A stretch of 59,702 nt of DNA from a virus, in IMG/VR virus record IMGVR_UViG_3300029309_000016, positions 1 to 59,702 of that record. The stretch is one strand, 5' to 3'. Positions 2,008 through 40,784 of the stretch are shown here, piece by piece. Each line of letters opens with the position of its first letter. The first letter of the stretch is position 1. The notes beneath the pieces were generated by a model. It saw only the letters and a program-made list of their open reading frames with translations. It had not been told where the DNA came from and made no database searches. A program made the position numbers and the translations under genes.

Positions 2008-2181
2008 ATGAAAGTAAAAGGCGTAAACGTAGATAGTCTAAATAAAAGACAACAGAATGCTCTTAAAAGGCATTCTAAACATCATACAGTAAAGCATATA
2101 AGAAGTATGGTTACTGCTATGAAAAAAGGCGCAACGTTCGGTAAATCGCATAAAATGGCGATGAAGAAAGTTGGTAAATAA
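2008..2181 (+). CDS. Small basic protein, marine-phage KRH/KMAMKKVG type
   Basis: 57 residues. The pattern LNKRQQNALKRHSKHHTVKH, then a Met/Lys-rich helix, then SHKMAMKKVGK matches a short protein found in many marine phages near structural and lysis genes. It is strongly basic and probably helical. It begins one base after the preceding stop. Its role is unknown; nucleic-acid binding or virion packaging is a guess from composition and position. Confidence 0.65.
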   Translation: MKVKGVNVDSLNKRQQNALKRHSKHHTVKHIRSMVTAMKKGATFGKSHKMAMKKVGK

Positions 2182-2207: not shown

Positions 2208-2351
2208 ATGGGAAATAAAAAAATGAAATATGGAGGCGGTGGTAAAACGAATAAACCAACTCCAGGCTATTATGCTATAGGTGGGATGTTAGATAAGAAG
2301 CTGGGTGGCGGAATGCTAGCTGCTATGAACATCAAAAAAAGAAAAGTATAA
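2208..2351 (+). CDS. Small Gly-rich basic protein
   Basis: 47 residues from ATG 2208. The Gly-Gly motifs KYGGGGKTNK, AIGGMLDKK and LGGGML resemble those that recur in the large cargo proteins downstream. The C-terminus is basic (NIKKRKV). It may be a free-standing version of the Gly-Gly linker found there, so it could be a packaged peptide. No family is recognised. Confidence 0.5.
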   Translation: MGNKKMKYGGGGKTNKPTPGYYAIGGMLDKKLGGGMLAAMNIKKRKV

Positions 2352-2353
2352 CC

Positions 2354-2479
2354 ATGGGATGTGGATGCATGAAAAAAGGTGGATCTACAAAACGTAAGAG
2401 AAAGAAAAAAACTTATTCTTACGCATATGGTGGTATATTAAGTTTAAAGAAATTCCGTAAGGACGGATGTAAAATGTAA
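2354..2479 (+). CDS. Small basic Gly-Gly protein with MGCGC start
   Basis: 41 residues, two bases after the previous stop. It begins MGCGCMKKGGSTKRKRKKK and continues YSYAYGGILSLKKF, so it carries two Gly-Gly motifs and three cysteines (residues 3, 5 and 39). No signal peptide precedes the cysteines, so lipidation is unlikely. It belongs with the neighbouring basic microgenes. Function unknown. Confidence 0.5.
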   Translation: MGCGCMKKGGSTKRKRKKKTYSYAYGGILSLKKFRKDGCKM

Positions 2480-2484
2480 TTATT

Positions 2485-2652
2485 ATGGCAAAAAAAAAGA
2501 AAAAAGGATTATACGCAAATATCCATGCTAAAAGAAGACGTATCAAAGCAGGCTCTGGTGAAAAAATGAGAAAGCCAGGATCTAAAGGAGCTCCTACAGC
2601 TGCAAACTTTAGGAGAGCTAAGAAGACTGCTAAGAAACGTAAAAAGAAATAA
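2485..2652 (+). CDS. Small basic protein, KKGLYANIHAKR type
   Basis: 55 residues. KKGLYANIHAKRRRI, then AGSGEKMRKPGSKGAPTA, then a Lys/Arg-rich tail is the pattern of a short conserved protein recognised from many marine phages. It has almost no hydrophobic core, so it is probably disordered or folds on a partner such as DNA or RNA. Its biochemical role is not known to me. Confidence 0.7.
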   Translation: MAKKKKKGLYANIHAKRRRIKAGSGEKMRKPGSKGAPTAANFRRAKKTAKKRKKK

Positions 2653-2654
2653 TT

Positions 2655-2939
2655 ATGGCAAAGGCGATTAGACGTACTACAGGCAAAGGCGGTAACTACC
2701 GTAAAACTAAGTCTGGAGCAGGCATGACTCGTAAAGGAGTTAAAGCTTACAGACGTGCTAACCCTGGATCTAAACTTAAGACAGCTGTTACCGGTAAAGT
2801 TAAAAAAGGTAGCAAAGCTGCTAAAAGACGAAAGTCATACTGTGCTAGAAGCTTAGGACAACTTAAGAGGTCTAGTGCAAAAACTAGAAATAATCCGAAC
2901 TCTAGAATAAGACAAGCTAGACGTAGGTGGAAATGTTAA
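2655..2939 (+). CDS. DUF6321-type small basic protein
   Basis: 94 residues. GKGGNYRKTKSGAGMTRKGV, YRRANPGSKLKTAV, GSKAAKRRKSYCARSLGQ and the C-terminal NPNSRIRQARRRWKC are hallmarks of the DUF6321 family found in marine phages. It is very basic, with two cysteines, one of them the last residue. It begins two bases after the previous stop, in the middle of the small-basic-gene run. Function is unknown; nucleic-acid binding is likely from charge. Confidence 0.85.
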   Translation: MAKAIRRTTGKGGNYRKTKSGAGMTRKGVKAYRRANPGSKLKTAVTGKVKKGSKAAKRRKSYCARSLGQLKRSSAKTRNNPNSRIRQARRRWKC

Positions 2940-2957
2940 ACACTTAAATAAATAATT

Positions 2958-3044
2958 ATGCCTAAAGGTAAAGGAACATACGGGTCTAAAATGGGAAGAC
3001 CTCCTAAAAAAAAGAAAAAAACCACTAAGAAAAAAAAGAAATAA
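2958..3044 (+). CDS. Very small Lys-rich protein, GKGTYGSKMGRPPKK type
   Basis: 28 residues, MPKGKGTYGSKMGRPPKK followed by a nearly pure Lys/Thr tail. The GKGTYGSK-GRPPKK core is a short conserved sequence that I recognise from several marine phages. It ends three bases before the holin start. GRPPK resembles an AT-hook (RGRP) minor-groove-binding core, which would suit packaging or condensing an AT-rich genome. That role is inference. Confidence 0.6.
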   Translation: MPKGKGTYGSKMGRPPKKKKKTTKKKKK

Positions 3045-3047
3045 ATT

Positions 3048-3479
3048 ATGGGAAAACCAAAAAAGAAGTTTTCTGAAACTAAGGTAGGAGCATTCTTATC
3101 TAAGGCTGCTCCTGGTATATTAGGTATAGCAGGAGATGTACTACCTGATGCAGGTGTATTAGGCTTAGTAAAAAATCTTATATCAAAAGATAAAACTATG
3201 CCTCCTGAAGATAAAGAAAAAGCAATGAAGTTGTTAGAAATTGACATGATAGAGATGCAAGAAGTGTCTAAAAGATGGACTGCTGATATGGCTAGTACAA
3301 GCTGGCTTAGCAAAAACGTGCGTCCTATAACTTTAATTTTCTTTTCAGTATCCTATATAGTAGGTTGGTATTTAGGTTATCAACTAGATAGTGTAGCAGG
3401 AGTTCTTTCATTAATTGTAGGAGCATACTTTGGTTCTAGAGGGATTGAAAAGGTAATGGGTAATAACAGACATAAGTAA
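3048..3479 (+). CDS. Holin, 3-TM type
   Basis: 143 residues resembling the 3-TM holin family of phages and gene transfer agents. It has an N-terminal Gly/Ala-rich helix (GILGIAGDVLPDAGVLGL), a charged central helix rich in Met and Glu, the marker stretch WTADMASTSWLSKNVRP, and two membrane helices (ITLIFFSVSYIVGWYLGY and SVAGVLSLIVGAYFGSRGIEK). It would permeabilise the cytoplasmic membrane at lysis. The last two bases of its stop TAATG overlap the next ATG, so it is coupled to the peptidase gene. Confidence 0.8.
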   Translation: MGKPKKKFSETKVGAFLSKAAPGILGIAGDVLPDAGVLGLVKNLISKDKTMPPEDKEKAMKLLEIDMIEMQEVSKRWTADMASTSWLSKNVRPITLIFFSVSYIVGWYLGYQLDSVAGVLSLIVGAYFGSRGIEKVMGNNRHK

Positions 3480-5983
3480 TGAAAATAAGAAAAGAATATA
3501 CATATAATCCGAAAAAGTATCAAAATGGGGCGCAGTTACCTGCTATGATGCCGGCTCCACCTACCCCTGCTACTATCTCACAAGCTCCTGGCTTTTTAGA
3601 TAACATGGTTAGTGATGTTCGTTCTATTGTTAAATATCCTTTTCAATCAGCAAGAACATTCTTACAGCAAGGTGAAATACCTTATAACTTAGATAAAGCC
3701 ATAGATGCAGATAATGTACCAACACAGCCTATGGACTTTGCTGCAAATATGGTTAATGTACCAGGGGCTGTATTAAAAGGTGCGGAGTCTCTTATGGACG
3801 GAGATCTAGGTAAATCAGCAATGAATTTTGCAAGTGTATTACCTTTTGTAAGACCATTAAAAGCAGTAGGAGTTAGTCCAACAACTGCGAAAGCGGTATC
3901 TAAAGGTGTTAATAAATCATTAAAAGCAAATACATCTTATCAAGGAGGAGGTCAAACACCAATATTTCAAGATAAAAAACTACAAAGACAGTTTGACATA
4001 CCTACTTATAATGAGTTTGCTGAAAAGTATAATATTAATCCTGCTGATACAACGTTTTTTGGTTTTGGTGATAATATGATGGGGATGGTAGCAGATAACT
4101 TAAGAAATGCTAGAATACAAAAAAGAATAGATGATGGAGAAACAAGTTTTACATTGCCTTATATAAATCAAAACTTTTCAACGGATAACTTTATAGAGCT
4201 TCCTTCTAAGAAAGAAGGTAAACCGCCTTTAAAAATATACTTTGAAAAGTATAATAAAAATGAATTACAAGGTGGAGGTATGCTTATGTCTAGAGAACAA
4301 ATAGCTGCAGAGATGGAAAGAATAAATGAAGCCAAGGCTGCAGAACAAGAAAGACTAGCACAATTTCAACAAAATATACAAGGTCAACTGCCTAACTATG
4401 CTACAGCAGAAGAAAGAGATGCAAATCCACGAAATCAAAAAAGTATAGACTCAACTGAAGTTATAGGTCCTACGTTTAATTATTTAAACTCTTTAGCAGA
4501 CCAAAATAAACCTTCTTATGGTTGTACAAGTTACGGTTGTGGAATGATGAGAGAAGCAGGAGCTACACTACAAGGAGATGTAAATATTGCAGGTAGAGAT
4601 TATTCATCTGGAGATAAACTACCTATTATGGCAGGTAATGCTATGATGAATTCTATGATAGAACAAGATCCTGCAGCTATGGGATTTGAAATTATTAATC
4701 CACAATCATATGATGATCTACAACCAGGAGACAGAATTGTAAGTGACTACAGTACTGGTGGACCTGAAGGAGGACAACACACACAAATATTCTCTGGACA
4801 AGTTGACGATCAAGGAAGACCTATAATAATGGAAAACATGGGAGGTAGCTTTAGAAAAGGAATATCTTCAAGAGCTGTAGATTATAATTTTGCTGATCCT
4901 AATAGTGGATATAGAGTAACTAGATATACGGGTAACATGCAAAACCTTAATAACGAACTAGCTAAATATCAAGAAATGTTAGACACAGGAAAAGTTAGAC
5001 CAACAGCTGTTAGTACATTAACAGGTGAAGGTATACAACCTGTACTTACTGGAAGTACAGAAATGCAAACAACACCTTTACGAGGACTAGGTATGGGTAA
5101 AGGAGGAAGTGTAAGTTGGATGTTTGGAGGTAAAAAATATAGTGGTACTCTTATACCAAGTATGGAAACAGATAAAGCTAGATTTGCAAGAACACACAAC
5201 GGTAAAATAAAAACACTACCTAAGAAAAAAATGGAAACTGGTGGAGGGACTGAAGGAACAGCAGACGAAGCAGAAAAAGGAATGGGCTTTATGGGTAAAA
5301 ACACTGGATTTGGTAAAGCTATGGGCAACATACCCTTTGCACAACTAGGATCTCTAGGAGCTGGTTTATATAATGCTAGTCTTGGCTCTGATCCTACAGA
5401 AATATCAGAAGGTGAAGCAGGAACAGCTGGAGCAATAGGTATGGCAGGACAAGGAGCATCTATGGGAATGGCACTAGGTCCTATAGGAGGAATAGTTGGA
5501 GGAGTGTTAGGAGCTATAGGTGGTGGGTTATTAGGAAAAAGCCAACATAAAAAACTATTAGCAAAACTAAAAAGACAAAAAGAAGAAGCATTAAACAATA
5601 GATTATCAGCAATGTCTGCACAAGATCAAGTTAATGCAGCTAGTGTCTTAAGTCAATATCCAACTGAGGGCGTAGATAATTATAGTTACTACGCAGAAGA
5701 TGGTGGAATGATGAAAGCACCTGACTATACTGTAGAAGGAGGAGAACTAATGATGGGACCTGCAAATAATCCTCCACAAACAGATGAAAACGGAGAAGTT
5801 CGTAAAATTGGACCAAATATGTTTAAATTTGTAGGAGATACTCATGATGCACCTTCGGGAGGTATAGGAGTAAAAGGAGGAAACACCGGGTTTGGTTCAC
5901 AAACTAATCAAGCATTGGATGCAGGATTTGTATTCTCTGATAGATTAAAAACTAATGTTGACGACTACTTAAAATATATATAA
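3479..5983 (+). CDS. Virion cargo protein with Cys/His peptidase domain
   Basis: 834 residues. A central domain (about 335-490) looks like an NlpC/P60- or amidase-like cysteine peptidase: SYGCTSYGCGMMREAG (C349, C354), then LQPGDRIV, then GGQHTQIFSG (H434). It would cut peptidoglycan or a cross-link during DNA entry or at lysis. Gly-Gly motifs recur (YQGGGQT, LQGGGML, MGKGGSV, MFGGKKYSG, AEDGGMM, VEGGELM). Around residues 655-690 a Gly/Ala-rich stretch may cross a membrane. The end, AGFVFSDRLKTN, is a short motif I recall from other Bacteroidetes phage virion proteins. It leads a row of four large genes ending in the RNA polymerase, so co-packaging is likely. Catalytic assignment is by eye. 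Confidence 0.65.
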   Translation: MKIRKEYTYNPKKYQNGAQLPAMMPAPPTPATISQAPGFLDNMVSDVRSIVKYPFQSARTFLQQGEIPYNLDKAIDADNVPTQPMDFAANMVNVPGAVLKGAESLMDGDLGKSAMNFASVLPFVRPLKAVGVSPTTAKAVSKGVNKSLKANTSYQGGGQTPIFQDKKLQRQFDIPTYNEFAEKYNINPADTTFFGFGDNMMGMVADNLRNARIQKRIDDGETSFTLPYINQNFSTDNFIELPSKKEGKPPLKIYFEKYNKNELQGGGMLMSREQIAAEMERINEAKAAEQERLAQFQQNIQGQLPNYATAEERDANPRNQKSIDSTEVIGPTFNYLNSLADQNKPSYGCTSYGCGMMREAGATLQGDVNIAGRDYSSGDKLPIMAGNAMMNSMIEQDPAAMGFEIINPQSYDDLQPGDRIVSDYSTGGPEGGQHTQIFSGQVDDQGRPIIMENMGGSFRKGISSRAVDYNFADPNSGYRVTRYTGNMQNLNNELAKYQEMLDTGKVRPTAVSTLTGEGIQPVLTGSTEMQTTPLRGLGMGKGGSVSWMFGGKKYSGTLIPSMETDKARFARTHNGKIKTLPKKKMETGGGTEGTADEAEKGMGFMGKNTGFGKAMGNIPFAQLGSLGAGLYNASLGSDPTEISEGEAGTAGAIGMAGQGASMGMALGPIGGIVGGVLGAIGGGLLGKSQHKKLLAKLKRQKEEALNNRLSAMSAQDQVNAASVLSQYPTEGVDNYSYYAEDGGMMKAPDYTVEGGELMMGPANNPPQTDENGEVRKIGPNMFKFVGDTHDAPSGGIGVKGGNTGFGSQTNQALDAGFVFSDRLKTNVDDYLKYI

Positions 5984-5984
5984 C

Positions 5985-7601
5985 ATGGCAAAAAAAATGA
6001 CATACGCAGATATAGCAGAGAAGTTATCTAACGCATATAATAAATATGATAGTGCATTACAAACTGCCACAAATGATGCAGAAAAAAATGCAGCTACACT
6101 CATGTTAAAACGTGTGTCAGATAGACTCAATAATTTAATGCTTGATAATCAAGCACAGGCAAATGAATCAGATCAAAAAGAAACGGCTCCTGATTCACCA
6201 GACCAAAGCATTGCTCAAAGAGAAATGCGAATGATGGGTAAAGGAGGTAAACTTAAACCTGTACCAAAAGGTAAAAAAGGCAAAGGGTTATCTAAATTAC
6301 CTAAATCAGTGAGAAACAAAATGGGATTCATGGAAGATGGAGGCAACCTCAAACCTATACCGCCAGGCAACAAAGGATTACCTAAGTTACCTGAAGCAGT
6401 TAGAAATAACATGGGGTATATGAAAAAAGGAGGTTCAACGTTTCCAGATCTTACAGGAGATGGTAAAGTAACGTTTGCGGATATATTGAAAGGTAGGGGA
6501 GTTTTTCAATCCGGAGGACAGTTATATGATAATGTAACAGATGACTTACTAACAAAAGAATTGTTAGAAGAAGCTGGAATATTATCAGGACTAGGTGGTG
6601 AGTTTAATCCTAGAAATCCTGAACATGTAAAAAAACTACAAGAAGGATTACTAGGAGCTTACACAGGACCTGGAGCTGATACAATGTTATCAGGAACAGA
6701 GTTAGAGTTTATAGGACCTGATGGTCCACAATCTGTTAATCAAGCAGGAGTAGATGGTAAGTTTGGTATTGATACATTTACTGCTTTACAGCAATTTACA
6801 AAAAGAAAAGATAATCCATTTGCTAATTTAAAACCATTAGAGGTAGAACCACTAAAGGTAGCACCAGTTGAAGATGTTATACCTCAATTAATGAAACAAA
6901 CAACAGCAACTCCTTCAGAAACTGAAACTACAGGAGGTGATGAGTCTAGTAAAGAAACTACAGGATCTGGAAAAGCTGTAAATACTATAGTTGATAATCT
7001 ATTAGGTCCAGGAACAAAAGCATTAGAATACTTTGATAAACTTAACTTAATTAGAGGAATGAGACCTCCTGAAGATATGTTACTACAAAGTCCAGTGTTT
7101 TTAAATACTAACACTAGTATAGATCCACAGCTGTCAGATTTAAATGATCAAAGAATAATGAGAGAAAGAGCTCTAAAACAAAGCAGAACAAAAAGACAAA
7201 ACGTTGATGCTAACCTAGCTGCTTCTGAAGCACAAGCTAATAGAGCAAGAGCTAAATTATTCCAGCAAAAAAATCTAACGGATCAAAAAAATAGAAATAT
7301 GCAAACTATGTTAAACTCTAACATAGAAAAGTTAAATAACCAAACTTCGTTTGATAATGCTTTTGCTCAAACAGACTTCTTAAATAACAGAGACAGAGCA
7401 AGATCAAGATTATTTTCTGGTATAGTACAAGACGCACAAGATTTATTAACACAAAGAACCGGTAGAAGATCACAAGAGGCACAACTAGAAGCACTTACTC
7501 CTTACTTAAATATGTACGGAGTTATGGATAGAAATGCTCCTCAGTTTAGTGATGCACAACTAGCTAATTTAATGAGAAGGCTATTAGGACAAACCACATA
7601 A
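5985..7601 (+). CDS. Virion cargo protein with peptidoglycan-binding motif
   Basis: 538 residues. The N-terminus is helical. Between about 80 and 185 come four Gly-Gly modules, MGKGGKLKPVPKGKK, EDGGNLKPIPPG, MKKGGSTF and FQSGGQLYDN, and between the last two lies a calcium-type loop DLTGDGKVTFADILKGRG. Residues about 210-270 (VKKLQEGLLGAYTG, then GVDGKFGIDTFTALQQF) fit the PG_binding_1 pattern of peptidoglycan-binding domains. A long charged coiled coil rich in Gln, Asn and Arg follows (about 380-510). Its place between the peptidase and the RNA polymerase suggests an ejected internal protein that contacts the cell wall. The two GGxLKP modules look like an internal duplication. Confidence 0.6.
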   Translation: MAKKMTYADIAEKLSNAYNKYDSALQTATNDAEKNAATLMLKRVSDRLNNLMLDNQAQANESDQKETAPDSPDQSIAQREMRMMGKGGKLKPVPKGKKGKGLSKLPKSVRNKMGFMEDGGNLKPIPPGNKGLPKLPEAVRNNMGYMKKGGSTFPDLTGDGKVTFADILKGRGVFQSGGQLYDNVTDDLLTKELLEEAGILSGLGGEFNPRNPEHVKKLQEGLLGAYTGPGADTMLSGTELEFIGPDGPQSVNQAGVDGKFGIDTFTALQQFTKRKDNPFANLKPLEVEPLKVAPVEDVIPQLMKQTTATPSETETTGGDESSKETTGSGKAVNTIVDNLLGPGTKALEYFDKLNLIRGMRPPEDMLLQSPVFLNTNTSIDPQLSDLNDQRIMRERALKQSRTKRQNVDANLAASEAQANRARAKLFQQKNLTDQKNRNMQTMLNSNIEKLNNQTSFDNAFAQTDFLNNRDRARSRLFSGIVQDAQDLLTQRTGRRSQEAQLEALTPYLNMYGVMDRNAPQFSDAQLANLMRRLLGQTT

Positions 7602-7610
7602 AAATATAAT

Positions 7611-9575
7611 ATGAGTTATTATCCAGGATATTACGGACCAAGAGAATACTACAGAGGTAGAAGAAGAAGGAGAAGCCCTTTTGATGATATGAACTTAGCG
7701 TCATTAGGTAAACTATATACAGACGTTCCTGTTACAGCTGTACAAACAGCTATGGAGGGACTTAATAAAGAATACTTAAGAGTAGCAGATCAAAAAGATG
7801 CTTTATCAGAAGCACTAGCTGCAGCTCAAGTAATGGAAGGAGATAACCCAGAAAAACAAAATTTAATTAAAGGACTACAAGATCAAATAAATACTTTTGT
7901 AGAAGACACAGGGGGTGCATTTGAAAAAGGAGATAAGTTTGTTAGAGGATTAGCAAAAGATGTATCACAGAATCCTTGGCTATATCAAGCAATAGAAAAC
8001 AAAAAACTATTTGATGAAGATCAAAAAATGTTAGATGAGATGAGAGTTAAAGGACTTGCTCCTTTATATTTAGCTGATGAAAACTTTACTACAATGGGTG
8101 CAGATGGTGCGCCTCAAGGCTATCAATCTTATATTGGTTCTAGAGTAGACAGAAGACCAGTATTGGAATCTTTCTTTAATCAAATTAAAGCAGATAGAAG
8201 AGACTTAGTAGATGAGTTCATGAATATAACAACAACTCAAACAACAGAACCAAGAGTAAAAGAAGTTATAGGTGAAGCTTTTGACATACTTAAAGGAACT
8301 AAAGAGTATCAACAATCTTTAGAAAATGCTAAGGCAGAAGCTAACTTTAATGGTCAACCATTTGATCAAGCTGCTTTTGACAATCAATGGAAGAACGATC
8401 TTAGACAAGTAGGTGCAGAGTTTTCTTATACACAAATATCAGAAAATCCTAACAGAACATTGTTTAATGCTGCTTTTCAGCGACCAGGTGATACAGGTCC
8501 AACAGGATTTTCACAAAACACACTTCAACCACAAGGATCAAGTTACATGAGAGGAACCGATACTGATGCTATGTTTAATAATCCGTTAGGTCTTGGAGGT
8601 GATGATAGTTATAGATTCTTTACTGAGCAACGTGTTAAAAATCCTACTATGCAAAATCTAGACTCTAATGGTCAACGTATTATTACAGTTGGTAGAACTT
8701 TTAGCGGTCCTGTAATAGATATGACTGATGAAAGAGATAATCAAGGAGGATCAGAAGGTCAATTTAGACTTTCACCTAGTGGAGGTGCTTACAATGCTAC
8801 TCCTACTGGTGAGTTTGTTACTGTTCCTATAGTAGTAGGAGATAATAATGCATTTTATAAAGGACTAGAAGAAGAAATAAGAAATGCACTTATAGCTCAA
8901 GATGATACTTATAACTGGACAATGTCTACTCAAAAAGGGTTTGCAGGAGAAATGCCTTATGCTGGTGCTATTTCAGGTCTGGGCAGAGGAAGATATGGCG
9001 ACATTGAAGCAGATATAAAACCTTTACCTCTTACAGTACAAAAAACATTTGTAAATGAAGCAGGAGAAGAAAAGACAGCAAGTATTCCAATGTCTTATAT
9101 TGTTAAAAATGGTCAACCTTTAATAGTAGAGTCTGAGCCGTTTGCTATATTTGATACATTTGATAGTGCAGATCCTGCAGAAGCTAACAATAAAGGTAGA
9201 GTATTACAGTTACTTGACCCAACAGTAGCTGCTAACCAAAACCTCAAAACATCTTATAGAACATTATATCAAGATGGTGGAGGAGACGCTGCTAATCTAG
9301 GTAATATGGACTTTACAATTGGATTTTTACAAGATTTCGAAAAAGGACTAAGTCCTAATAATCCATTGTATCAACTTACAATAGAATCTCTTAATGCAGC
9401 AGTAGAAGTTAGAAACAAGTTTAACGAAGAAGGAGGAAGATTAGATGCTATAGACTATGCTGTTATGCGTGAAATTGATCAAAAGTTAATGGGCATAGTA
9501 TTAAAAGCTTTAAATCCAGATCCTACTATAGTAAGAGAGTTATCAAAAACTAGAAACAACTCTGGTAGATTATAA
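7611..9575 (+). CDS. Large virion cargo/structural protein
   Basis: 654 residues. The start is Tyr/Gly-rich, then an Arg block (YRGRRRRR). A helical region of about 170 residues follows (LGKLYTDVPVTAVQTAMEGL; FVEDTGGAFEKGDKFVRGLA). The rest is mixed alpha/beta with no catalytic motif that I can see. In crAss-like phages a protein of this size and style lies beside the virion RNA polymerase and is part of the ejected cargo; that is the basis of the call. The Gly-Gly modules of its neighbours are mostly absent. The RNA polymerase gene follows after 15 bases. Confidence 0.5.
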   Translation: MSYYPGYYGPREYYRGRRRRRSPFDDMNLASLGKLYTDVPVTAVQTAMEGLNKEYLRVADQKDALSEALAAAQVMEGDNPEKQNLIKGLQDQINTFVEDTGGAFEKGDKFVRGLAKDVSQNPWLYQAIENKKLFDEDQKMLDEMRVKGLAPLYLADENFTTMGADGAPQGYQSYIGSRVDRRPVLESFFNQIKADRRDLVDEFMNITTTQTTEPRVKEVIGEAFDILKGTKEYQQSLENAKAEANFNGQPFDQAAFDNQWKNDLRQVGAEFSYTQISENPNRTLFNAAFQRPGDTGPTGFSQNTLQPQGSSYMRGTDTDAMFNNPLGLGGDDSYRFFTEQRVKNPTMQNLDSNGQRIITVGRTFSGPVIDMTDERDNQGGSEGQFRLSPSGGAYNATPTGEFVTVPIVVGDNNAFYKGLEEEIRNALIAQDDTYNWTMSTQKGFAGEMPYAGAISGLGRGRYGDIEADIKPLPLTVQKTFVNEAGEEKTASIPMSYIVKNGQPLIVESEPFAIFDTFDSADPAEANNKGRVLQLLDPTVAANQNLKTSYRTLYQDGGGDAANLGNMDFTIGFLQDFEKGLSPNNPLYQLTIESLNAAVEVRNKFNEEGGRLDAIDYAVMREIDQKLMGIVLKALNPDPTIVRELSKTRNNSGRL

Positions 9576-9590
9576 TAAATAATTGTTTTT

Positions 9591-12500
9591 ATGTCAACTA
9601 AGAAAACACAAGGTAAAAAATTACAGAGTGGTGGACAGCTACTAGAGAAACTTCAAAACTTTACTCCGCCTACTGATAATAAAAATACTACTCCTGTAAC
9701 TGAAAGAGTTCCTCTTATAACCAGTGAGCTTATATCTAATTATGCTCCTAGAAAGAACGATCCTTTTTCTCGTTTTAGTTTAAATAAAATGAAGGACAAC
9801 CCTGAGTTTACAAGTCCTTATATGAATGAAAAAGTAGATACTGTAGGAGATTTAAGTGCAGCTAATTATGGATTTCCTACTCAGTTAGAAGAGGGAGACC
9901 CAGGATATACTCCTCCTTTAATTCCTATTTCACCGGATGAAATGATTACACCTGATGTATGGGCTCCAGAAACTATGATACTAAATAGACCTAATACTAC
10001 TTATCTTTCAGGAGGATCAGGTAGATCTGAATTTAATCCGGCTGCTACAATAGCAAAAAGAAAAGGGGTAGAAGCAGGTAGATCAGGTAGAGTTATTCTA
10101 GAAGATGGAACTAAAGTTGACTTTAGTGATCCAGAAAGTAAATATAGATTTGACAATCCTAACTGGCTTCAAAAAATATTTGGAGAAGATAATGATGGAA
10201 ATATGTTCAAACGTACTTATGATTATGAAGAGGACTTTCAAGTAAACCCTGACGCTCTAGAAACTTATGGTCAAGATTTCTCAAACCTAGTTCAAGAACA
10301 AAGAGAAAGTATACTAAAATTTCTGCCTTTTAAAGGAATGGACACTTCAGGGTATTATTATAAAGAAAAAGGATACTATCCAGTATATGATGAAGATGAA
10401 GAACAATGGTATCTACAAGAAACAAGCTTATCTGAAGACAAGTTTATGAAAATGAGAAGTGCATTACTTAGTCCTTATGGAGTAGGTCAAGTACAAAAAG
10501 GTACATTACATTCTTTTGTAGATGGATTTAGCGATGGTTTAGGTAGTACTTGGGAAAGTCTTGTAAACTTTGGAGAAATAGTTGGAGATGCTTTTGATGG
10601 TGTAGACTCAGATCTAGAACCTGACGGTTTTACTGATAGACTTGCGGCTTCTGCTAGAACTGCTTACAACTTTAACAAGTATGCAAAAACAGCAATGCAA
10701 CAAACAGACTCTATGTTTTCTAGTGGAGATGCTTTTGGAAACGGATTAGGCAGTGGTCTTGCTTCTTTGTTATCTTTTTGGGGGTTAGGTGGAGTCGGAG
10801 CAGCAGGAGCAAAAGGAGCTGTAAAACTAGTTACTAAAAAAATGCTTACTAAGTTTCCTAGAAGAGCAGTAAGTATGATTGGTCATATGTCGGGAGGTAT
10901 GCCGTTAAATGCTGGAGAAGTATACTCAATGGCTAAAATGGATGGACTAGATGATGATGATGCAGCAGGCTTAGCACTTACTGTAGGATTTATAAATACC
11001 TTAGTAGAGTATGGTGTAGGAACAAATGCGCTGGCTAATAGAGCATTTGGTACATATGGTACAAGAGGAATGACTAAAGCTATATTAGATTATGGTAAGA
11101 AAACAGGTATGAGGTTTAATAGTAAACAAACCTTAGATCAAGCTACTCCTTATATACTACAAAAAATTAATAAGTTTTTACAAAAAGGTGATGACTTTCT
11201 TAACTCTCCGTTTAGAGCGTTAGAAAACGTAGGAGTTAAAAGTGCAGGTAAATATGGTACTAACTTACTAACAAGAACAGCTAGAGCAACTGGATCTGGA
11301 CTTGAAGAAGGAAGCGAAGAATTTATACAAGGTTCTATTATAGATGGAGCTACAAAAACTTACAACAACTTAATAGCAGGAGAGGATGGTAAAAGACCCG
11401 GTATGGGAATGTTTAATACTTCTCCTTTTGATGCAAATAAATTACTAGAAGAAGCAGCTATTGGATTTATACTAGGAGGATCAACTAGATTTATTAGTAA
11501 TGCTAGAGGTGAGGCAGATCTTATGAGAATGATAGCAGAAGGTAATGGACAAGAACTACTAAACCAAGTAGATCATTTAGGAGGAATGAATTTATTAGGT
11601 AAGTATCAAACTAAAAAACTAAAGAAAAGAATAGGTGATTTAATTAATGTGTGGAATGCTAATGGTGCAGGCTATAGTCATTTATCTATAGAAGATCAAG
11701 GTCTTGTTGGACAGTTCTTATTATCTGAACAAGAAAATAATAAACAGATAGACTCTCTAAATAGAAGAATATCTAAAGTAAATGCTGATCCTGATCTTAG
11801 CAGCAAAGAAAAAAACAAAAAAACAAGACAACTTAAAATAGAATTAAATGCACGACAAGAACAGAAAAAGGTTTTAGAAAACTTTTTAGATATATATTCT
11901 GATCCAAAGAAAGTAGATGAAACACAGATAAATAAAATGCCTTCTGTTGTAAGAAACGCTATCTTTCATTTATCTAGAGAAAAAAGTTTACATCAAAGTA
12001 GAATAGAATACTTAAGAGACTTACTTGTAAATGATACACCTGCAAATAGAAGAAGAGCAAGAAACGTATTAAAGAAAATATTAGGAGACGCTGAACTTAA
12101 AAGAACTTTAGGTGCTCTTACTGCGGCTCAAAAACAACAAGTAGAAGATGAAATTAAAAAGTATGAAAAATACATAGAGCAAATTGATGAGCAGATGGAT
12201 GGATACTTTACAGACTCTAGTCAATGGGATGGAGTAGTAGAGAAAGTAGAAAATGAAATGAAATCACAAGAAGAAAAAATAGCAGAAGAAGAAAAACCAT
12301 TAACTACTAAAGCTAAAGATCAACCAAAGAAAAATGAAACTCCACAACAAAGAAGAAATAGAGAAGCTAAAGAAGAGGTAGAAAGAAAAATTAATAATCA
12401 AAATCAAGCTATATCAAATGTAATAGTTCCTACTAGTGAAGTTAAGATGGTAGAAGATAAAGAAGGAACCTTACATCAAGTAGCAGGCATAGAAAAAGAT

Positions 12501-15500
12501 GCTAATAATAAAATTGTATATGTTAGTCAGACTTTAGATGATAAAGGTAATCCTATAAAAATACTTCAAGATGACGTAGCATTAGTGGTTACTGACTTCG
12601 GAAGAGAAAAACACAGAGATAACTTTCTAAAAACATATTGGCTACACGCTGTTGGTTTAAATGATGAACAGCGAGATGAACTAGAACGTAAAATACTTCA
12701 AGATAAAGATCTAGTAAATAGAATACAAATACAATTTGTTTACAAAAAAAGAGAACTATCAGACTCTGCTATAAAAGAAGAGAACATGGATATAAACATG
12801 AATGGCTCTTACTTAAAAATAGTAGATACAGGTGATAAGTCTGTAATAGCAGTTATAAGAACACCCAATAGGTTTTATGATAAAGCTGGTAAACTTATAC
12901 CTGGAGACAAAATGACTAGACAGTTTTTTTCTGATAACTTTAGTAAAGATAGACCATTTACAAAACAACAATGGAAAGAGTTTGGTATGAACTATACTAA
13001 ACTAGTTCAACTAATAGAATACTTAGAAGGAGAGTATAAAGATGCTACTGAAGAAAATCCTATTGTTCTTGATGAGTCACAGTTTAATATTAGTTTTGAC
13101 GTTGGATTAGTTAGTAATGAAAGTAAGAAAAGATTATTAATTACAGATTTACTCGTAGGAGATCATACTTTTGATGGAGACTATAGAATATATGATAGAC
13201 AAGAACAAAAAGCTATTATAGGAAAAGAATTTACAAAAGATGAACTAACTAATCTACCATCTATTGACGGTAGGTATTTTGCATTAGTAAAAAGAGGCAA
13301 CGCTCCTAAATGGGTTAGAGTTATGCCTAGAGAACTAGCTAGTGCAGATATTACAGAAAGACTTAAACGTGCAAAGAATGCAATACAAAAAGCAAATAAA
13401 ATTAAAAAAGAGGGAAGTGAAGCTGTTGATTTAAAAGACTATATAGAGAGTATTAATAAAGATTTAGATTTATTTGTTGCTGCAGAAAAAGATATAGGCA
13501 TACATATAATAGCAGACTATAATAGAAAGACTGACAGCTACGAATTAAAGCTAGAAATAACTCAAAGAAAAAATGGAGAGTATGTTAAGTTATATAAAAG
13601 AGTACAAAATCCAGATGTAACATTACCTAATATTATATCAACTGTAAATAATCAAATGAAAAAATACGGACTATCTACTATAGGAGTAAATAGTTTTAAA
13701 CAAAGCATACCCTTACCAGGAGAAGGTGTAGTAGTTGATCCTAATTCTTTTGAAAGTACATTAGAAGTATCAAGTAGAAATTTTATAAATCCTACTATGA
13801 TAATTTCTCCTAAAAATGAATTCTTTGAAACTCCAGTAAAAGGAAAACCTATAAAAGCACAGAAAAAAACAAAAGTAAGAGAAGAAATAAAACTAGATGA
13901 TAATAAAAAGACATCAGCAGAAAACCTCTTAGACGAACTTAATGAAGAGGGCGGAGATCTTATGGCTTCATTACCAGAAGGTAGACTAAATAACGAAGTA
14001 CGTAAAGATATTGTAAAACAAATAGTTGCTAAATATATATATGGTGCAAATGACTATAGTATAACTACAGCTATTATGGATTCTGCTAGATTAGAAACAC
14101 CTCTAGAAGATTCATTAATAGAAAAAATACTAAATGCATATATAGCCGGATTAACTCCTCAGAGTTTTATGGATGGATCTAAAGAGTATACTACTGAAGA
14201 AGTTACTAGTATAAAAAATAACTTTAGACAGGCATTCTTAACAAAACTAAAACTAGAAACAAATAAAGAAATAAGAGATGATATTATAGATGAGGTAAAA
14301 AGACAGGTTGTTTTTTTACAAGATGATTTAGATATATTAGATCAAATACAAACAGACTTTAATGTAGATTACACACAGCTCGGAGGAATTAAGTCTTTAT
14401 CTTCTAGAATAAAACAATTTATATCATTACTAACCTCTGAAGCTAAAGATAACTTTGGTAGAACTAAGTGGCAGTCTAAACAATACGGTACAGAAACTAT
14501 ACGTAAAACTTTAAACGGACATAATCTTGCATCTCACTTAATAAAAGCTCTAGCAAATGATGGCAGTTTAGTTAACTTACAAAGAAGACTTGAGGCTCTT
14601 GCTAAATATGATGAACAAGCAGAATTAGTATTATCTGCATTAAATGATCCTGCACACAAGCATGTAAAAACAGCATTTGAAAACAACTTTAATAAAGAAC
14701 CAATGAAGTTCTTAAAGCTTGTCGGTGATAGTAAAGGTCAGTTTATATTTATAGATCCACTAGAAAACGATGGTTCTAATCAAGTGTTTAGAATGTGGAA
14801 GAGTAAAAATACAAAAGACAGAAAAGCTGTAAATAATATTGTAAATCTAATAGAAAGTATAGAATCTGATCCTACTGCTGATCAAATAAATAAATTAATA
14901 AAAGAGTTTGATAATCTAGGATGGCAATTAAGTAAAGGAGCAGCTGCGTTTATACTTGGAGACGAACAAGTAGTAAGTGCATTTACAGAACTGCAAACCA
15001 ATGAGCTAATAAGTAATCCTAAAAAGTTCTTTAAAGGGTATGTAGCTGACTTTAACAAGAAAAATAAAACAAAAACCAATATGTTTAAACTAGCACAGAT
15101 AGCTGCTATGTTTGACCCTACTGTATACGAACCTAATTATATAGATGCTGATGGTAATGCTCACTATAAATACACACATAGAAACTATTACATAGATGCA
15201 ACTAACTCAATAAAAAAAGGAGGAAAAAGTTTTATAAAGGCAGGAGATTATAATTTACTGATTAAAAAAGGAGCCTTAAACACACTAGACTTACAATATG
15301 TAGGGGACGTTGTCTTAAATAAAAAAGGTAAAGTAAATAAAAACCTAGTAGAAAGAGAAAGAATGTTATTACATTTTGCACTGTTCCAAAAAAGAGACAT
15401 ACCAGGAACAGCTTACTATATACCTCATGTAATTGCAGACAAGAAAACAATGTTTGGTATAAGAATGCCAGTAATAGATACATACTATAATGAAGGTGTA

Positions 15501-18500
15501 ACTCAAGAAGCAATAGATGATGTATACAACTCTATATTTGTTAGAGAGGTTAATAGAAATGCATCTGGAGAACTTTTAATAAGTAAAAAAAATGAAGTTA
15601 AATATTTTGGTGTACTAAGTCAACTAAACGATGTTGAGTATGAAGGTCAACTTCTTCCTGACTTCTTAACAAAGAAAAAAAATAACTTAGATGGTCTAGC
15701 AGCTGATATAAAACAAAAGGTTATAAAACCTATGTTAGAACAGGTTGTTGCTGATACTAATGAAAGAATAGATAATTTAAATGTTAGAAAGCAACTTACA
15801 GATCTTAGACTTGACAGTCCTCTTCAAGGTACTATTAATAATAAAATAGGAAGATTTGCTATTAATCATTTTGTAATGTCTGTTTCTTGGACTCAATTAA
15901 TGCATGGTGATGCAAACTTTGTAGACGACAGAGATATGAATAAAAGATTAGCAGGGTTTAATGCAGCAGGTGCAACAATGGGTACATCAGACTATAACTA
16001 TTTATTTATAGAGGATGAAATAATAGACACTGAGTTTGGATCTCCAAGTAATACTAGCGATGCTCAAGTATATATGACTGAAGAGCAATATGCAATGCGT
16101 CAATTAGAAGCAGGTGAATATAGAAATGATATAGAGTTTTCAGCTTTAACTAAATTAGCGGCTAGATTAGATGATCCTTCTATAGAATTAACTCCTGAAG
16201 AACTAAACTCTTTAGATTTAAACAGCACAAAAACAGTATCAGAAAATAGTGAAGACTACTTTAAAAAGTCTGATAACATAATTACAAAAGAAGAAGCAGA
16301 AGCAAATCCAGACGTAGGTCGTATATACAATCTTCTTAATTCTAATAGGATACTATACTTAGTTCCTCTTAGTGCTCAAAAAAGAAAACCTGGACGTGCA
16401 CTTCCTGCAAACTTCTTTAAAGCAGATAACAAATTAGATACTAGTCTTATAAGAACAGGTAACTTAAGATTTGAAAGAAATCAAGTTATTAATAGATCTA
16501 AATCTAGAGTAGGAAAAGTGAATGATTCTGTTATGGCAAAACAAGTTCATGACCTCATTGGTTCTGTAATTACAAAAAATAGATCGTTGGTTGATACTAT
16601 AAATCAAGCTAACGCAGATCAAAAAGCAGCATATACAGCAGTTGTAAATGCTTTCTTAGATCCACAAAACAGTGAAGCTTTACGTGCACTGTTATATATG
16701 AATGCACAAAACAATAGAGGACCACAAATATTAGGATTCTTAGATCCTTCTATTTCCAAACCGTTTAACCTAAGCCTAGGTAATATAAAAACCTATGTTG
16801 AAAATGCTCTTGTAAATGTGTATAATGATGGACCATTGAAGTCTAAAGTTGTAGGGGGAGTTGCAACTTTAATTTCAGGTACACATTACATAAACCCACA
16901 GACAGGTCAACCATTACGTATACACAGAAACGTAAATGGTAAGATAGAATATGCAGAAGTATTAGCATCTAGAAAATTCTTTGGTCTAAGTAAATATGAT
17001 ACCATAGAAGATGTTCCAGATGAAAGGATGTTGCAGGCTTTTGGTACTAGAATACCCGCACAAACATATCATTCTATGATACCTATTAAAGTTGTAGGGT
17101 TTTTACCAAATTCAAAAGGAGACTCTATAGTAACACCTAGAGAGCTTCCAGGACTTGCAGGATCTGATTATGACTTAGATAAACTTTATCTACATAGGTA
17201 TGCAAGCCATGATGGAAAAGTAATAGAGGATCCTAATGACTTAATAGAGTACAAAAGATTCTGGAGTGAAACTCCTTTTGTAAAGCTAATAATGAGTACG
17301 TACAAAATAGACTCATCAGAAGCTATGAAAAGACTAAACTTAATAGATGAAGATGGTAGTGCAGCTGTATCTCATCCTAGAGTAGAACAAAACAAAATGC
17401 TTGATAATATGTTACAAGTATTTAATGACCCAGAAGTACAAGAGGTTATGTTTGTTCCTGCTTCAGAAGGAGAAGCTGATGCATTTTTAGAAAAGTATCC
17501 TAACTTAGATAAACTAAAACCTATACATACAGTTGTTGGAGTTTTAGATTATCATACACAAAATAAATTAGGTGCAACAAACGTAGGTATAGCTGCAAAT
17601 TTAAATACTCTTGTATCTTTCATGACTCAGTTTGCACCTGATACGTCTACTGTAGGAATAGATATAAATGATGAATACTTTGGTTCTTTTGGTAGAATAG
17701 TAGATCCTACAGGTAAAAATAAATTTGACTCTATATCTACATTAATAACTTGGTTTGTAGATAATGTTAAGTTAGGTGTTGCTCCTAGATTAAACTTAGA
17801 CCCAGATATGTCACAAACTTTTGGACATCTAGTGGGCATGGCAGTATCTCAAATGGAAGCTTTAATGCTTGTTAACCAGCCTATACTTAGATTATATAAT
17901 GAGCTAAAAGAAAATGATCCTAAATTAAGTATAGCAAAATCTAGACAAGATGCAGCAAAAAGAAGAGGAGAAATAAGAGCAATGTTAGTAGAAAAAATAC
18001 GAGCTGTATCTAATAACAAAGGAATGCCTTTTACTACTGAAAATCTAGACAAAGGACTTACATATGATACAGATATAAAAACTCTTTTAAATCTAGGTTT
18101 ACCTAATCAAGTATTAAAACTAGAACTTAATGAAGAAGATAATGCCTTCTTAGGCACACAGCTAAAAGCACTAGAATTTGTAGATGAGGTTGTAAGAAAA
18201 TATGAAACAGAGTATGGTGACATGATACAGTTTATGACTACAACTAGAGGACTAAAAGGAGTAGATGCCTTAAGAAACATGAAAATATCAGATCCTTTAC
18301 TTGTTCATCCTGTTTTCCAAGCTAATGCAACGTTAATAAAACAAATGACACAAAACATTGGATCTAAGTTTTTAACTAATTCAGAGGTTGCAGATGCTTT
18401 TATATCAGTATACGGTAAGACTACTCCTAAAGAAATGCAAGATGTTTTAGCTAAAATACAACAACTAAAAGCAGATCCTAAGTATAATTCTAACGGTGCA

Positions 18501-21500
18501 CTACATAATTTATTACGTATAGAAAAAGATGAAAATGGTAAACTTACATTGCTTGCAGACTCCTTTACTGTAATGTCACCTGAAATAGAAGGAGAAATGA
18601 TGGGTATGTTTGAAGACTTATTTGAAGATAACCCAGGATTATCAGATCAGTTATTAAAATATTTATTTGGTACTTCTTTATTAGAGTTTAAAGCAAATTC
18701 TTTTGTAAAATACTTACCTCCAAATATATTTAGAAAATGGTCAGATGCTTTAGATTCTTATGAAAGAACTCCAGAAAAAAGAAAGGTAGCAGACAATGAG
18801 TATAAAAAACTTAAAGTAAAAGCAAAGGCATATGCCGGAGAAGTAGAAGAAGGATTAGAAACTACGTTACCAACAGACAGAGAACAGTTTAAAAATGGTA
18901 CATATACTATTGATAAGATAGCATCAGAACTATTAGTTGATGATGGCTTTAAAAATTTATTAAATAAACTAACTTCACAGGGAGTTGAAGTAGAGTATAC
19001 AAGAGGAGGTGCTAGTTATTATTCTAACAATAAAATATATCTAGGTAAGTTAGATCAGAATACTTTCTTAGAAGAAGCGGTGCACGCAGGACTAGATATA
19101 CTACCTAAAGATCAAAAAAATAAATTAAGAAAAGATGTATTGTCTTGGTATAAACAACTTATAAAAGATCATGCAGGTAAAAACGAAATACAAACAATAC
19201 AAAGAATATTTAATAGGTATAATAACTTCTATAAAAACGAAGAGAAAGCAGCAGAAGAAATTGTAACACATTTACTATACAATGAATATGGTATAGCTCA
19301 AGATCTTAATAACTTAGTATCTCCAGATGCACAAGAAGGAGGCATTCTAAAAAGAATGTGGAATAAGTTTATACAAATATTATCTAAGTATCTAGGTATA
19401 GAAGTACAAGAAGGGTCTGAGCTAGAAAAACTATCTTCTTTAATGCAGCCTGTAAACAGATTACTACAAGACGGTGAAGTAGAATACAGCAATGAAAGAT
19501 CTTCAGATCAGCTGTTTAGTATGCCCCATGGTAAGTTATATGATAATCTTACAATTAAAAATGTGACACCAGATACTATGGCGAAAATTAATGTAGAAGG
19601 AGAAGGTACAGTTATAATGTTTGATGGATTAAGAATGCCTGTTGAACAAACCATTGTCAATTTAGCTAAAGGAGGAAAGTATGGTGCTACTGTATATGTT
19701 AAGAAAAAAATTCCTATAAGAAACTTTGCAGTATTAAACAAAGTTACAAAAGAAAAATATGCAAAAGATTTAGGGTTTGATAATTTTGCTGACTTAAAAA
19801 AGAAAGCAAAGGGTAGATTATTAGAATTTGTAAATGGTAGAAGAGAGGGCATGATAATGCAAGTAGAACAATTCCTACCTAAAGAATTAGAAGATTTAAT
19901 ACAAATGAATTCTGTAGATCCTTATAGTAATGTTGTTAATAATATACTTATAAAGTTATATAAACAATTAAAAGATTTACAACAAGTAAAAAACATAGAG
20001 TTTGCAACTAATAGATCAAACAGACTTAAAAAAATTATAAATCAAATAGAACAAACAAGAGACTTGTTTACATCTGTTGCTGACTTTCATGATGATGTTA
20101 TTACACAGTCTAAATTATTTGATGAGTTTTTAGAAACTATACCTGAAGAACTTAAAAAAGGGAACAAAGGATTACAAACTGTTATAAATGTTTTGTTTAG
20201 AATGCAAACGTTATACCAGGATATGAGTTTCTTAGAAGAACTACCTGATGTTTTTGTAGAAAAAATTAAAGATCCAGAATACAAAGCACCAAATGATGTA
20301 TTAAAGAAATTACAGGAAGCTGCACAGACTTTAGACTTAATGAAACAAAAGACTAGAAAACAGTTTATTCCAATAGTAGCAGAAAAACTATTTCCATTTA
20401 TTGAAAGGTCAGGTCCTGCAACAAAAGCATACGTTGACCAAAGACTTGATCAAGTACAAAAACAAATAGAACGAGTTAGAAAAGCTGATATTTCTGATTC
20501 TAAGAAAAATAAAAAAATAACTCAGCTACAAAAAGAGTTTGCTAGACTTACAAGATTAGCAGAACAAGCTCCACAAAGTGTAGAACAATACAAAAACTTC
20601 TTTATGTATACTACGCATGATGATTCATTTATAAATTATCTTCTTACATCGCCAGCTACTTCTGGAGATCCTGGTGTTGCAGCATTAGTAAACTATACAA
20701 ATGCGTTATATAATGATATAAGAATGCAAGCTTTAGATATAGCAAATCAATTGGAAAGTGCTGAGGGATTAGTAATAGAAGGATTAGAAGAAGCCGGTAC
20801 TCCTGCTAAGAAAACAAAAGGAGTTTATAATCCTAAAGATTTATATGATGCACTAATACAAAAAATTGATGATAACGGTAGAGAAGTTTATCAACTAGTA
20901 ACTCAGTATGATTCAGAGAGATTTCTACGAGAGTTAAAAGCAGAAGAAGAAAAGAAAATAAAAACTCAAGAAGACTTCTTAAGATTTAAAGAACAGTTAG
21001 AAAAGAGAAGAAAGAAAACACTACAAACTTATAAAAACAAACTAGCTGCTTTTAATAGACTTGATGATGAATTAAAAACTGCGATAATACAACAACAAAT
21101 ATCAGAGTTAGAAGCTTCTATATCTAGAGTTGAAAATCAAATTCAAAAAGGAGCAACTGAAAGAGAAGTTGTTAGGTTTGCTACAAGACTCTGGAGAGCT
21201 CAAAACACTGTTCCTAAAGATGTAAAAGAAATACAAGCTATTATTAAAAGGTTACCTCCTGCAGAAGTAAGAGCTTGGGCTTCTAATCAAATGAATTATG
21301 CTGCAATGTATTATCATAATATAATTAGTGCAGAAGAGTATACTTTGTTACAAGATATAGATAAAGCTTCAGGACTAAAACCAACACAAGACAGGCAATA
21401 TTTTGGTGTCCAGGTTACAATACCTAAGTTTATAAATCCAAAGTGGAGAAAGTTGTATAAGAGAGTAACAAGGAAAGGACCGGACGGTCAGAGTATTCAG

Positions 21501-39776: not shown

Positions 39777-39903
39777 AATTCTTTATTTTTTTATTTAACT
39801 TATTTATCTCTTTATTCTTTTCATCTATAACAGAGCTGAGGCGAGTGATTTCTGTTTCCATCGCCTCTATTCTGTCTAGATGGTATTTACTATTATCTAC
39901 CAT
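39760..39903 (-). CDS. Small coiled-coil protein
   Basis: 47 residues, heptad-like throughout: HLDRIEAMETEITRLSSVID, then KNKEINKLNKKIKNYEKDK. There is no signal or membrane segment. It overlaps the DUF4846 gene by 7 bases upstream and the lipoprotein by 17 bases downstream, so all three appear to be co-translated. Confidence 0.55.
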   Translation of the reverse strand: MVDNSKYHLDRIEAMETEITRLSSVIDEKNKEINKLNKKIKNYEKDK

Positions 39904-40784
39904 TTGAATCGTCTTAAATTTTGTGAATTAAACGTCCATGTGTATGTATATATTGGTCCTTCTTCTTTCATATCAAACCACACATCACCGTCTTGAGGAT
40001 CAATAAGTATATGCTGTTCTTGTGCAGGCATATACGATTGAGCTAACATAAATACTTTATGTCCTGTCTCATTATGTATAGCTACATCTACTACGGTAAC
40101 TGCATGTCCAGGAAAACCTCCTTGAACAAATACATCACCCGGTTGCATATCAGTTATTGGAATAGTATCTGTTTCCAAATTTTCCAATGACCATGTGCCA
40201 GCATATATCCACATATGTTCCATATATCTGAAGAATGTATTGTAATCAGATATAGTTATATTATTATCTCGAAGCCAACCCCAGTAACTGACATAAGTTC
40301 CATCTGTATAATGAAATCCTATCTCTGATTCTCTGTTAGACTCCCATAAATAATATGCTCTTAACCAAAATGCTGCGTCAGCACATTGATGTAAGTCTTT
40401 GTTACCTATCTCGTAAGTAAATGTTGCAGCGTATGTTCTGCCTTTGCCTTTTACAATACCACCATTGTGATATCTAGCATAACCTGTATGTATAGGTAGA
40501 TTGTATAACCATAATGAATACTCATCATAGTTCTTTCGTTTGTAATCCTGTGGAGTATCAAACTCATCTAATATCGTTGTATACTTATTCTCATAGTTGT
40601 ATTGTTGAGCGTATGAACACTGAGTTGCAACAGCTATAAGTAAGACTGTTATTATTAATCCAACTATAGATACAAATGTAAACTTATATTGTTCTCTAAG
40701 TTTTCTTTTACTGCGACCTTGTCTATACTTTATGTCGTTAGTATCTGTAACTTGTAGAGTACCTATTTTTCTTTTTCTTTGCAT
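39897..40784 (-). CDS. DUF4846 protein, predicted membrane-anchored Cys/His hydrolase
   Basis: 295 residues. A cytosolic basic start is followed by a membrane segment (about 33-55, FVSIVGLIITVLLIAVATQC). The periplasmic part matches DUF4846: QCADAAFWLRAYYLW (C134), GTWSLENLE, MQPGDVFVQGGFPGHAVTVV (H227), and LAQSYMPAQEQHILIDP. The PGDVFI-PGHAV pattern resembles NlpC/P60-type folds, so C134 and H227 may be the catalytic pair. The family is typical of Bacteroidetes, so it was probably taken from a host. A cell-wall or envelope role is inference. Its placement in the early block is odd for a lysin. Confidence 0.85.
   Translation of the reverse strand: MQRKRKIGTLQVTDTNDIKYRQGRSKRKLREQYKFTFVSIVGLIITVLLIAVATQCSYAQQYNYENKYTTILDEFDTPQDYKRKNYDEYSLWLYNLPIHTGYARYHNGGIVKGKGRTYAATFTYEIGNKDLHQCADAAFWLRAYYLWESNRESEIGFHYTDGTYVSYWGWLRDNNITISDYNTFFRYMEHMWIYAGTWSLENLETDTIPITDMQPGDVFVQGGFPGHAVTVVDVAIHNETGHKVFMLAQSYMPAQEQHILIDPQDGDVWFDMKEEGPIYTYTWTFNSQNLRRFKW

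Follow-up and report, generated by a model that had tools for sequence, protein, structure and literature searches.

Gly-Gly motifs at the edges of small recurring modules in the cargo cluster of a crAss-like phage

Described counterparts and the phage under study

Phage crAss001 carries a virion cargo bound in the lumen of portal and tail, gp45 (cargo protein C1, PDB 7qog), the gene of which adjoins the polymerase genes. This protein contains many sites of the form Phi-x-x-GG or A-x-GG, in combination with a 50-aa module (M3) bracketed by GG. In the gp45 orthologues of gut crAss phages, the GG-bracketed M3 reads GGGIHIKK.NRGKFT.YCGGKVT...RKRATFA.NAR.W...GG; it is duplicated in tandem in DAC15, and in cr108 the GGGIHI segment apparently follows the SHET domain instead of preceding it. 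Small stand-alone proteins with other modules are known as well. Gp44 (88 aa) of Pelagibacter phage HTVC027P, located next to the portal gene gp43, combines M6 with a module M2 that has a KKGG end, and gp63 (55 aa) of Roseobacter phage CRP-1 is a stand-alone M1 with a YMKDGG end, followed by a Cys-rich tail. Modules M7 and M4 have already been catalogued as DUF6321 (PF19846) and DUF5872 (PF19197), yet as separate entries that do not mention a shared GG-jointed arrangement.

The window analyzed here, i.e., the whole stretch of DNA under study, covers 59.7 kb out of a 67.1-kb IMG/VR record. Its terminase, portal and capsid are encoded among the plus-strand late genes and belong to PHROG head families (E below 1e-100). 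The best terminase matches are the Flavobacterium phages FpV4/FpV21 (39.6% identity), and Bacteroides crAss phages are also found among the 158 matching records; FpV4 is an isolate listed without an order. In addition, the 4605-aa ORF matches the catalytic RNA polymerase of phi14:2 and other crAss RNA polymerases (tblastn E 3e-8). Based on these head-gene matches and the Crassvirales-type polymerase, the window belongs to a crAss-like phage of Bacteroidota, with a cargo cluster that consists of the four large ORFs at 3479-23408:

3479..5983, plus strand: C1-like cargo protein of 834 aa in which GG motifs are scattered
5985..7601, plus strand: 538-aa cargo-cluster protein with the array [GG]-M1-[GG]-M1-[GG]-M2-[GG] near its N-terminus (module HMMs 42.4, 45.7 and 47.8 bits)
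7611..9575, plus strand: 654-aa cargo-cluster protein that lacks the strict motif
9591..23408, plus strand: 4605-aa giant protein, virion RNA polymerase of the Crassvirales type

The segment order of the 834-aa protein resembles that of crAss001 gp45, but there is no significant homology between both: the BLASTP match (E 0.002) is confined to a Gly-rich helix and the hhalign probability amounts to 12.6%. Searches of this ORF against phages and the PDB gave no match, and none of the modules M1-M8 was found in it. The module of gp45 is M3, in gut phages, and not M1 or M2 as in the window. A Cys/His stretch of the 834-aa ORF, at about aa 345-480 (YGCTSYGCGMM...GDRIVSDY...GGQHTQIFSG), has the look of an NlpC/CHAP-type cell-wall hydrolase; no NlpC/CHAP-type Pfam family matched it at E<1. 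In IMG/VR, a single relative was found for the 538-aa ORF and none for the 654-aa ORF and two parts of the giant protein.

Gly-Gly motifs and modules in the window

The initial annotation drew attention to a recurring Gly-Gly motif in three of the four large cargo genes and in two tiny upstream genes, and read it as a shared processing, folding or packaging signal. All six peptides it quoted are present in the window, and the count of cargo genes is correct, with the 654-aa ORF as the one without a match. Of the tiny genes, only the first carries the strict motif. Outside the 538-aa protein the sites are located as follows:

2208..2351, plus strand: 47-aa tiny Gly/Lys-rich ORF with one formula match (LGGGML)
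2354..2479, plus strand: 41-aa tiny ORF with MKKGGST and YAYGGIL, outside the strict formula (DUF7196 only at E 0.15)
4265..4285, plus strand: LQGGGML in the 834-aa ORF
5696..5713, plus strand: EDGGMM in the 834-aa ORF
9621..9641, plus strand: LQSGGQL in the 4605-aa ORF (aa 11-17)

Expressed as the formula.[SDKG]GG.[LM], the motif has eight matches in the four cargo ORFs and the two tiny ORFs compared to 1.56 expected after shuffling (P 0.0005), a P value that is optimistic since the formula was derived from the same sequences it was scored on. It is absent from the early proteins (0 in 6093 aa, 0.43 expected), where an equal frequency had been named as evidence against a shared signal, and from the other late proteins (0 in 5213 aa, 0.69 expected). 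Looser forms are enriched mainly in the cargo as well (GG.[LM], 18 vs. 5.5 expected; [FYWML]..GG, 23 vs. 8.7), whereas the plain GG count of 54 barely exceeds the shuffled expectation of 43. One of the eight formula matches, IGGGLL (aa 680-685) in the 834-aa ORF, is part of a hydrophobic, Gly-rich helix and probably a product of chance.

The 538-aa protein shows what the motif coincides with. Each of its formula copies is an edge of one of two conserved modules, M1 (twice) or M2:

6237..6254, plus strand: GKGGKL, GG directly ahead of the first M1
6252..6332, plus strand: M1 copy 1, LKPVPKGKKGKGLSKLPKSVRNKMGFM (HMM 42.4 bits; relatives on at least 120 viral contigs)
6333..6350, plus strand: EDGGNL, fixed GG closing M1 copy 1 and opening copy 2
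6348..6422, plus strand: M1 copy 2, LKPIPPGNKGLPKLPEAVRNNMGYM (HMM 45.7 bits; 68-73% identity to Roseobacter phages CRP-1, CRP-345 and CRP-13)
6423..6440, plus strand: KKGGST, GG end of M1 copy 2 and joint to M2
6441..6500, plus strand: M2 core, FPDLTGDGKVTFADILKGRG, dockerin-like Ca2+ loop and helix (HMM 47.8 bits)
6504..6524, plus strand: FQSGGQL, GG end of M2

The array joints thus comprise the three peptides GKGGKL, EDGGNL and FQSGGQL of the initial annotation plus KKGGST, a fourth GG that it overlooked, as it did the construction of the array from conserved modules. These modules were first defined by tblastn of the 538-aa ORF, which returned a 26-aa segment in phage HTVC027P and a second segment in Roseobacter phages. 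M1 follows the pattern LKPVP..NKGL.KLP..VRNKMG[FY]M and then xxGG; M2 follows FPDLTGDGKVT.ADILKGRGV, in most copies with three to five residues and GG thereafter. The M2 of the window is 84.6% identical to that of HTVC027P gp44 over 26 aa, but resides inside a large protein behind two M1 copies; its M1 is 71% identical to CRP-1 gp63.

Three further modules occur as stand-alone genes upstream of the cargo cluster:

2008..2181, plus strand: M9 (E 7.7e-9), joined behind M1 through KAGG in another locus (L114)
2485..2652, plus strand: M5 (phrog_16028), joined to M1 via KTGG in L013 and to M2 via LKGGG in L287
2655..2939, plus strand: M7, equal to DUF6321 (PF19846, 45.9 bits against a cut-off of 28.5)

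Five module types (M9, M5, M7, M1 twice, and M2) are consequently found within 5.5 kb of the window. The modules are 25-75 aa long and mostly very basic. By likeness alone, the GG sites of the 834-aa and 4605-aa proteins may be put in the same module-end class; no module is identifiable at these sites or in the two tiniest ORFs, and the latter have no relatives among the fetched loci. Further upstream, 1209-1619 encodes a small thioredoxin-like protein (Pfam E 7.8e-6), the N-terminus of which is signal-like.

Gly-Gly-ended modules in unrelated phages

The DNA patterns of M1 and M2 each gave at least 120 IMG/VR matches, in unrelated phages. Bacterial and archaeal genomes, 257 Gb in total, contain six M1 matches, all on single-cell or metagenome-assembled contigs. 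No Pfam family matches M1, M2, M5 or M6 above cut-off, and a literature search found no paper containing the module sequences, in agreement with the view of the initial annotation that such a signal had not been described. All loci had been selected for M1 or M2, and the counts below are taken from the matches listed; they are not population frequencies. When the modules were sought in each other's loci, M2 gave too few cases in those chosen by M1, and M1 was not found in those chosen by M2. M7 relatives are present on 112 of these fetched loci.

The conservation acts on the protein. The identical M2 peptide FPDLTGDGKVTQADILKG is encoded by 21 distinct DNA versions with 34% identity at four-fold degenerate sites, and the corresponding identity is 37-39% for the M1 and M7 cores. 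Identical peptides with near-saturated synonymous sites indicate old selection on the protein rather than recent spread. DUF6321 of the window (2655-2939) is among the most conserved small phage proteins met here; compared to its counterpart in an unrelated phage (L003), it shares 94% identity at the protein level and 74.5% at the DNA level.

Module genes are located in the late head region, where they adjoin genes for terminase, capsid, portal and adaptor. Among the 116 proteins encoded by the closest ORFs of 180 aa or more, 26 are SU10 adaptors, 12 SU10 portals (more by PHROG) and seven capsid proteins, and 113 of 120 neighbours are on the strand of the carrier. Several portal and terminase families are represented among these neighbours, which shows that unrelated phages are involved. 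The modules come alone as micro-genes, in tandem, or as parts of large internal proteins that resemble tape-measure or ejection proteins in type. Large carriers match tape-measure PHROGs through a C-terminal SDGEFV domain, and these matches depend on this domain of 40-100 aa; one large carrier has a LysM/endolysin part and the carrier of L040 is lysin-like. In Synechococcus phage S-P4 (L306:1130-2719), the 529-aa protein T4-GC119 contains likely relatives of M8, M4 (PSAYAS) and M7 (DUF6321). Its record reads "structural protein," but the paper calls it hypothetical, and we have not counted it as proof of a virion location.

Within these proteins GG is the fixed end of a module. It follows the M1 core after one or two residues in all 127 copies listed, with the same offset in 120, although the M1 search pattern did not include GG, and sequence conservation stops there. 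Moreover, the 35 C-terminal M1 copies have all retained GG while nothing is left to join, which argues that GG is more than a linker.

GG is also the joint at which modules are shuffled. Using HMMs of eight modules and spacers of 2-60 aa, we identified 57 adjacent module pairs in one ORF, 53 of which have GG in the spacer compared to 7.9 expected from composition. The observed pairings are M1-M1, M1-M2, M1-M5, M1-M6, M2-M5, M2-M6, M4-M1 and M3-M3. In one family of large proteins, M2 is located at the N-terminus in some members and ahead of the C-terminal domain in others. Similarly, a single 707-aa ORF (L103:680-2803) combines M1 with several PHROG families whose members are otherwise known as individual proteins (63-99 aa). 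An MMYGG repeat array is present at the end of this ORF.

The initial annotation proposed to scan related phages for the motif. Such a scan shows that the motif ends mobile modules across unrelated marine phages, and that it is not a property of the closest relatives. The cargo proteins of phi14:2, which are virion proteins by MS/MS, have few such motifs and no modules, and FpV4, the nearest isolate to share the gene order of the window, has a cargo without motif enrichment and without modules. The notion of a shared, strongly conserved element that is confined to cargo genes and small neighbours is supported; its restriction to this phage group is not. Given their absence from FpV4, the modules are dispensable for cargo loading in this lineage.

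On an 88-kb viral contig (L164:1-2454), an M3-like segment (RKRAxFAxNAxxW) directly precedes M2 in one ORF, with GS instead of GG. In combination with the M3 of gut gp45, this indicates that the GG-module way of building proteins extends beyond the sea. A homology between gut M3 and marine M6, suggested by a shared RxRAxxAxxxxK end, was rejected (hhalign probability 1%).

Possible roles of the modules

On balance, we lean towards the view that the GG sites of the 538-aa protein are the fixed C-terminal ends of modules from a library common to unrelated marine tailed phages, and that these modules serve as virion-internal beads. Such beads would hold DNA or portal-proximal proteins and would be able to pass the narrow portal and tail on ejection; in phiCrAss001, the constrictions of portal and tail are under 50 angstroms (PMC10172136). 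The Phi-x-x-GG sequence could then act as a flexible hinge or turn closing each bead, and the calcium loop of M2, a putative calcium switch, may stiffen the bead in seawater. This model is favoured by the presence of that loop and by predicted structures. In two weak AlphaFold models (pLDDT 66-69), the M2-M6 protein consists of helices and falls below pLDDT 50 only at residues 25-31, which correspond to the VFKKGGS joint, and one GG of the window array (EDGGNL) is situated in a turn. The M2-M6 model has no Foldseek match in the PDB. An exposed C-terminal GG as in ubiquitin was considered as well and is unlikely, given that the module is short and helical.

It is rather unlikely that the modules are simply stand-alone DNA-condensing basic peptides, which bind DNA non-specifically and in which GG is a neutral flexible linker. 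The charge of complete M1 carriers (median pI 10.7, above 9 in 95%) is in line with this explanation, as is the low confidence of the AlphaFold model at the joint. Yet, near-invariant modules and a GG that is invariant even at C-termini exceed what charge or flexibility would require.

Starting from the bead model, one may go further and propose that marine tailed phages of many lineages draw on one exchangeable GG-ended kit with a common portal or DNA partner, with M2 as a calcium switch that binds Ca2+ in seawater (10 mM) and releases it in the cell. We regard this proposal as tentative and unlikely to hold in full. If true, any protein would gain virion loading and threading by acquiring a module.

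The M2 loop itself invites a comparison with the Ca2+ loop of dockerin type I (PF00404). M2 has D1, T or N3, D5 and D12, at the dockerin Ca2+-coordinating positions, in 137 of 137 copies and G6 in 135, while backbone position 7 varies. The scan yielding these copies left the calcium positions free, although part of the sample originated from an earlier pattern in which these positions were fixed; the new loci likewise keep D1, D5 and D12. M2 would then be a docking tag that binds, dependent on Ca2+, to a cohesin-like partner on portal or capsid. This we consider improbable, despite the retention of the five residues in at least 98% of the copies and despite Dockerin_1 being the closest Pfam family (E 0.05): the score of 14.2 bits is below the cut-off of 22.9, the tandem duplication of dockerins is missing with a single M2 loop in 169 of 169 ORFs, and no cohesin is present among the 116 neighbours.

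Proteolysis appears distinctly improbable. A phage or host protease would cut after GG and free small basic module peptides, comparable to the internal peptides of T4. GG is positioned exactly at module boundaries and is kept where only a short basic tail follows, as expected for such a cleavage site. However, residues 425-552 of gp45 are ordered and continuous through GG 427, 434 and 447 in the phiCrAss001 virion (PMC10172136), and PHROG and Pfam searches of the main late head proteins of the window found no prohead protease. The processing at GG suggested by the initial annotation is thus unsupported.

We give hardly any credence to GG as a packaging signal that sends cargo into the capsid of crAss-like phages. 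The restriction of the motif in the window to cargo and tiny neighbours and the A-x-GG-rich gp45 orthologues of gut crAss phages would fit, but the modules are also carried by phages whose portals and terminases are unrelated, and the virion cargo of phi14:2 and the cargo of FpV4 do without modules and enrichment, so that a general crAss-like cargo-packaging signal is not at hand. Equally implausible is a chance product of composition in Gly- and Lys-rich small ORFs: the near-expected number of plain GG and the two tiniest ORFs without relatives agree with it, and it may apply to 2208-2479 and some GG sites of the 834-aa ORF, but for the 538-aa array it is excluded by conservation at near-saturated synonymous distance and by the GG content of the joints.

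Next to their portal genes, marine phage genomes abound in tiny, conserved and basic ORFs to which no role has been assigned. Many of these ORFs, together with parts of larger proteins, can now be described as some nine recurring modules that frequently share a GG at their end or joint. This reduces a scatter of hypothetical proteins to a single testable question for which cultured phages such as HTVC027P and CRP-1 are at hand, and connects crAss-like Bacteroidota phages with SAR11 phages, Roseobacter phages and cyanophages through modules of the virion region.

Two other ORFs of the record may be mentioned. In the early region, the minus strand encodes a 295-aa DUF4846 protein (39897-40784, E 2.6e-57). 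Beyond the window, a fibre-like ORF (L004:2185-9474, record positions about 59784-67073) begins after a short stretch of undetermined assembly bases and, with a length of at least 2430 aa, runs off the end of the record.
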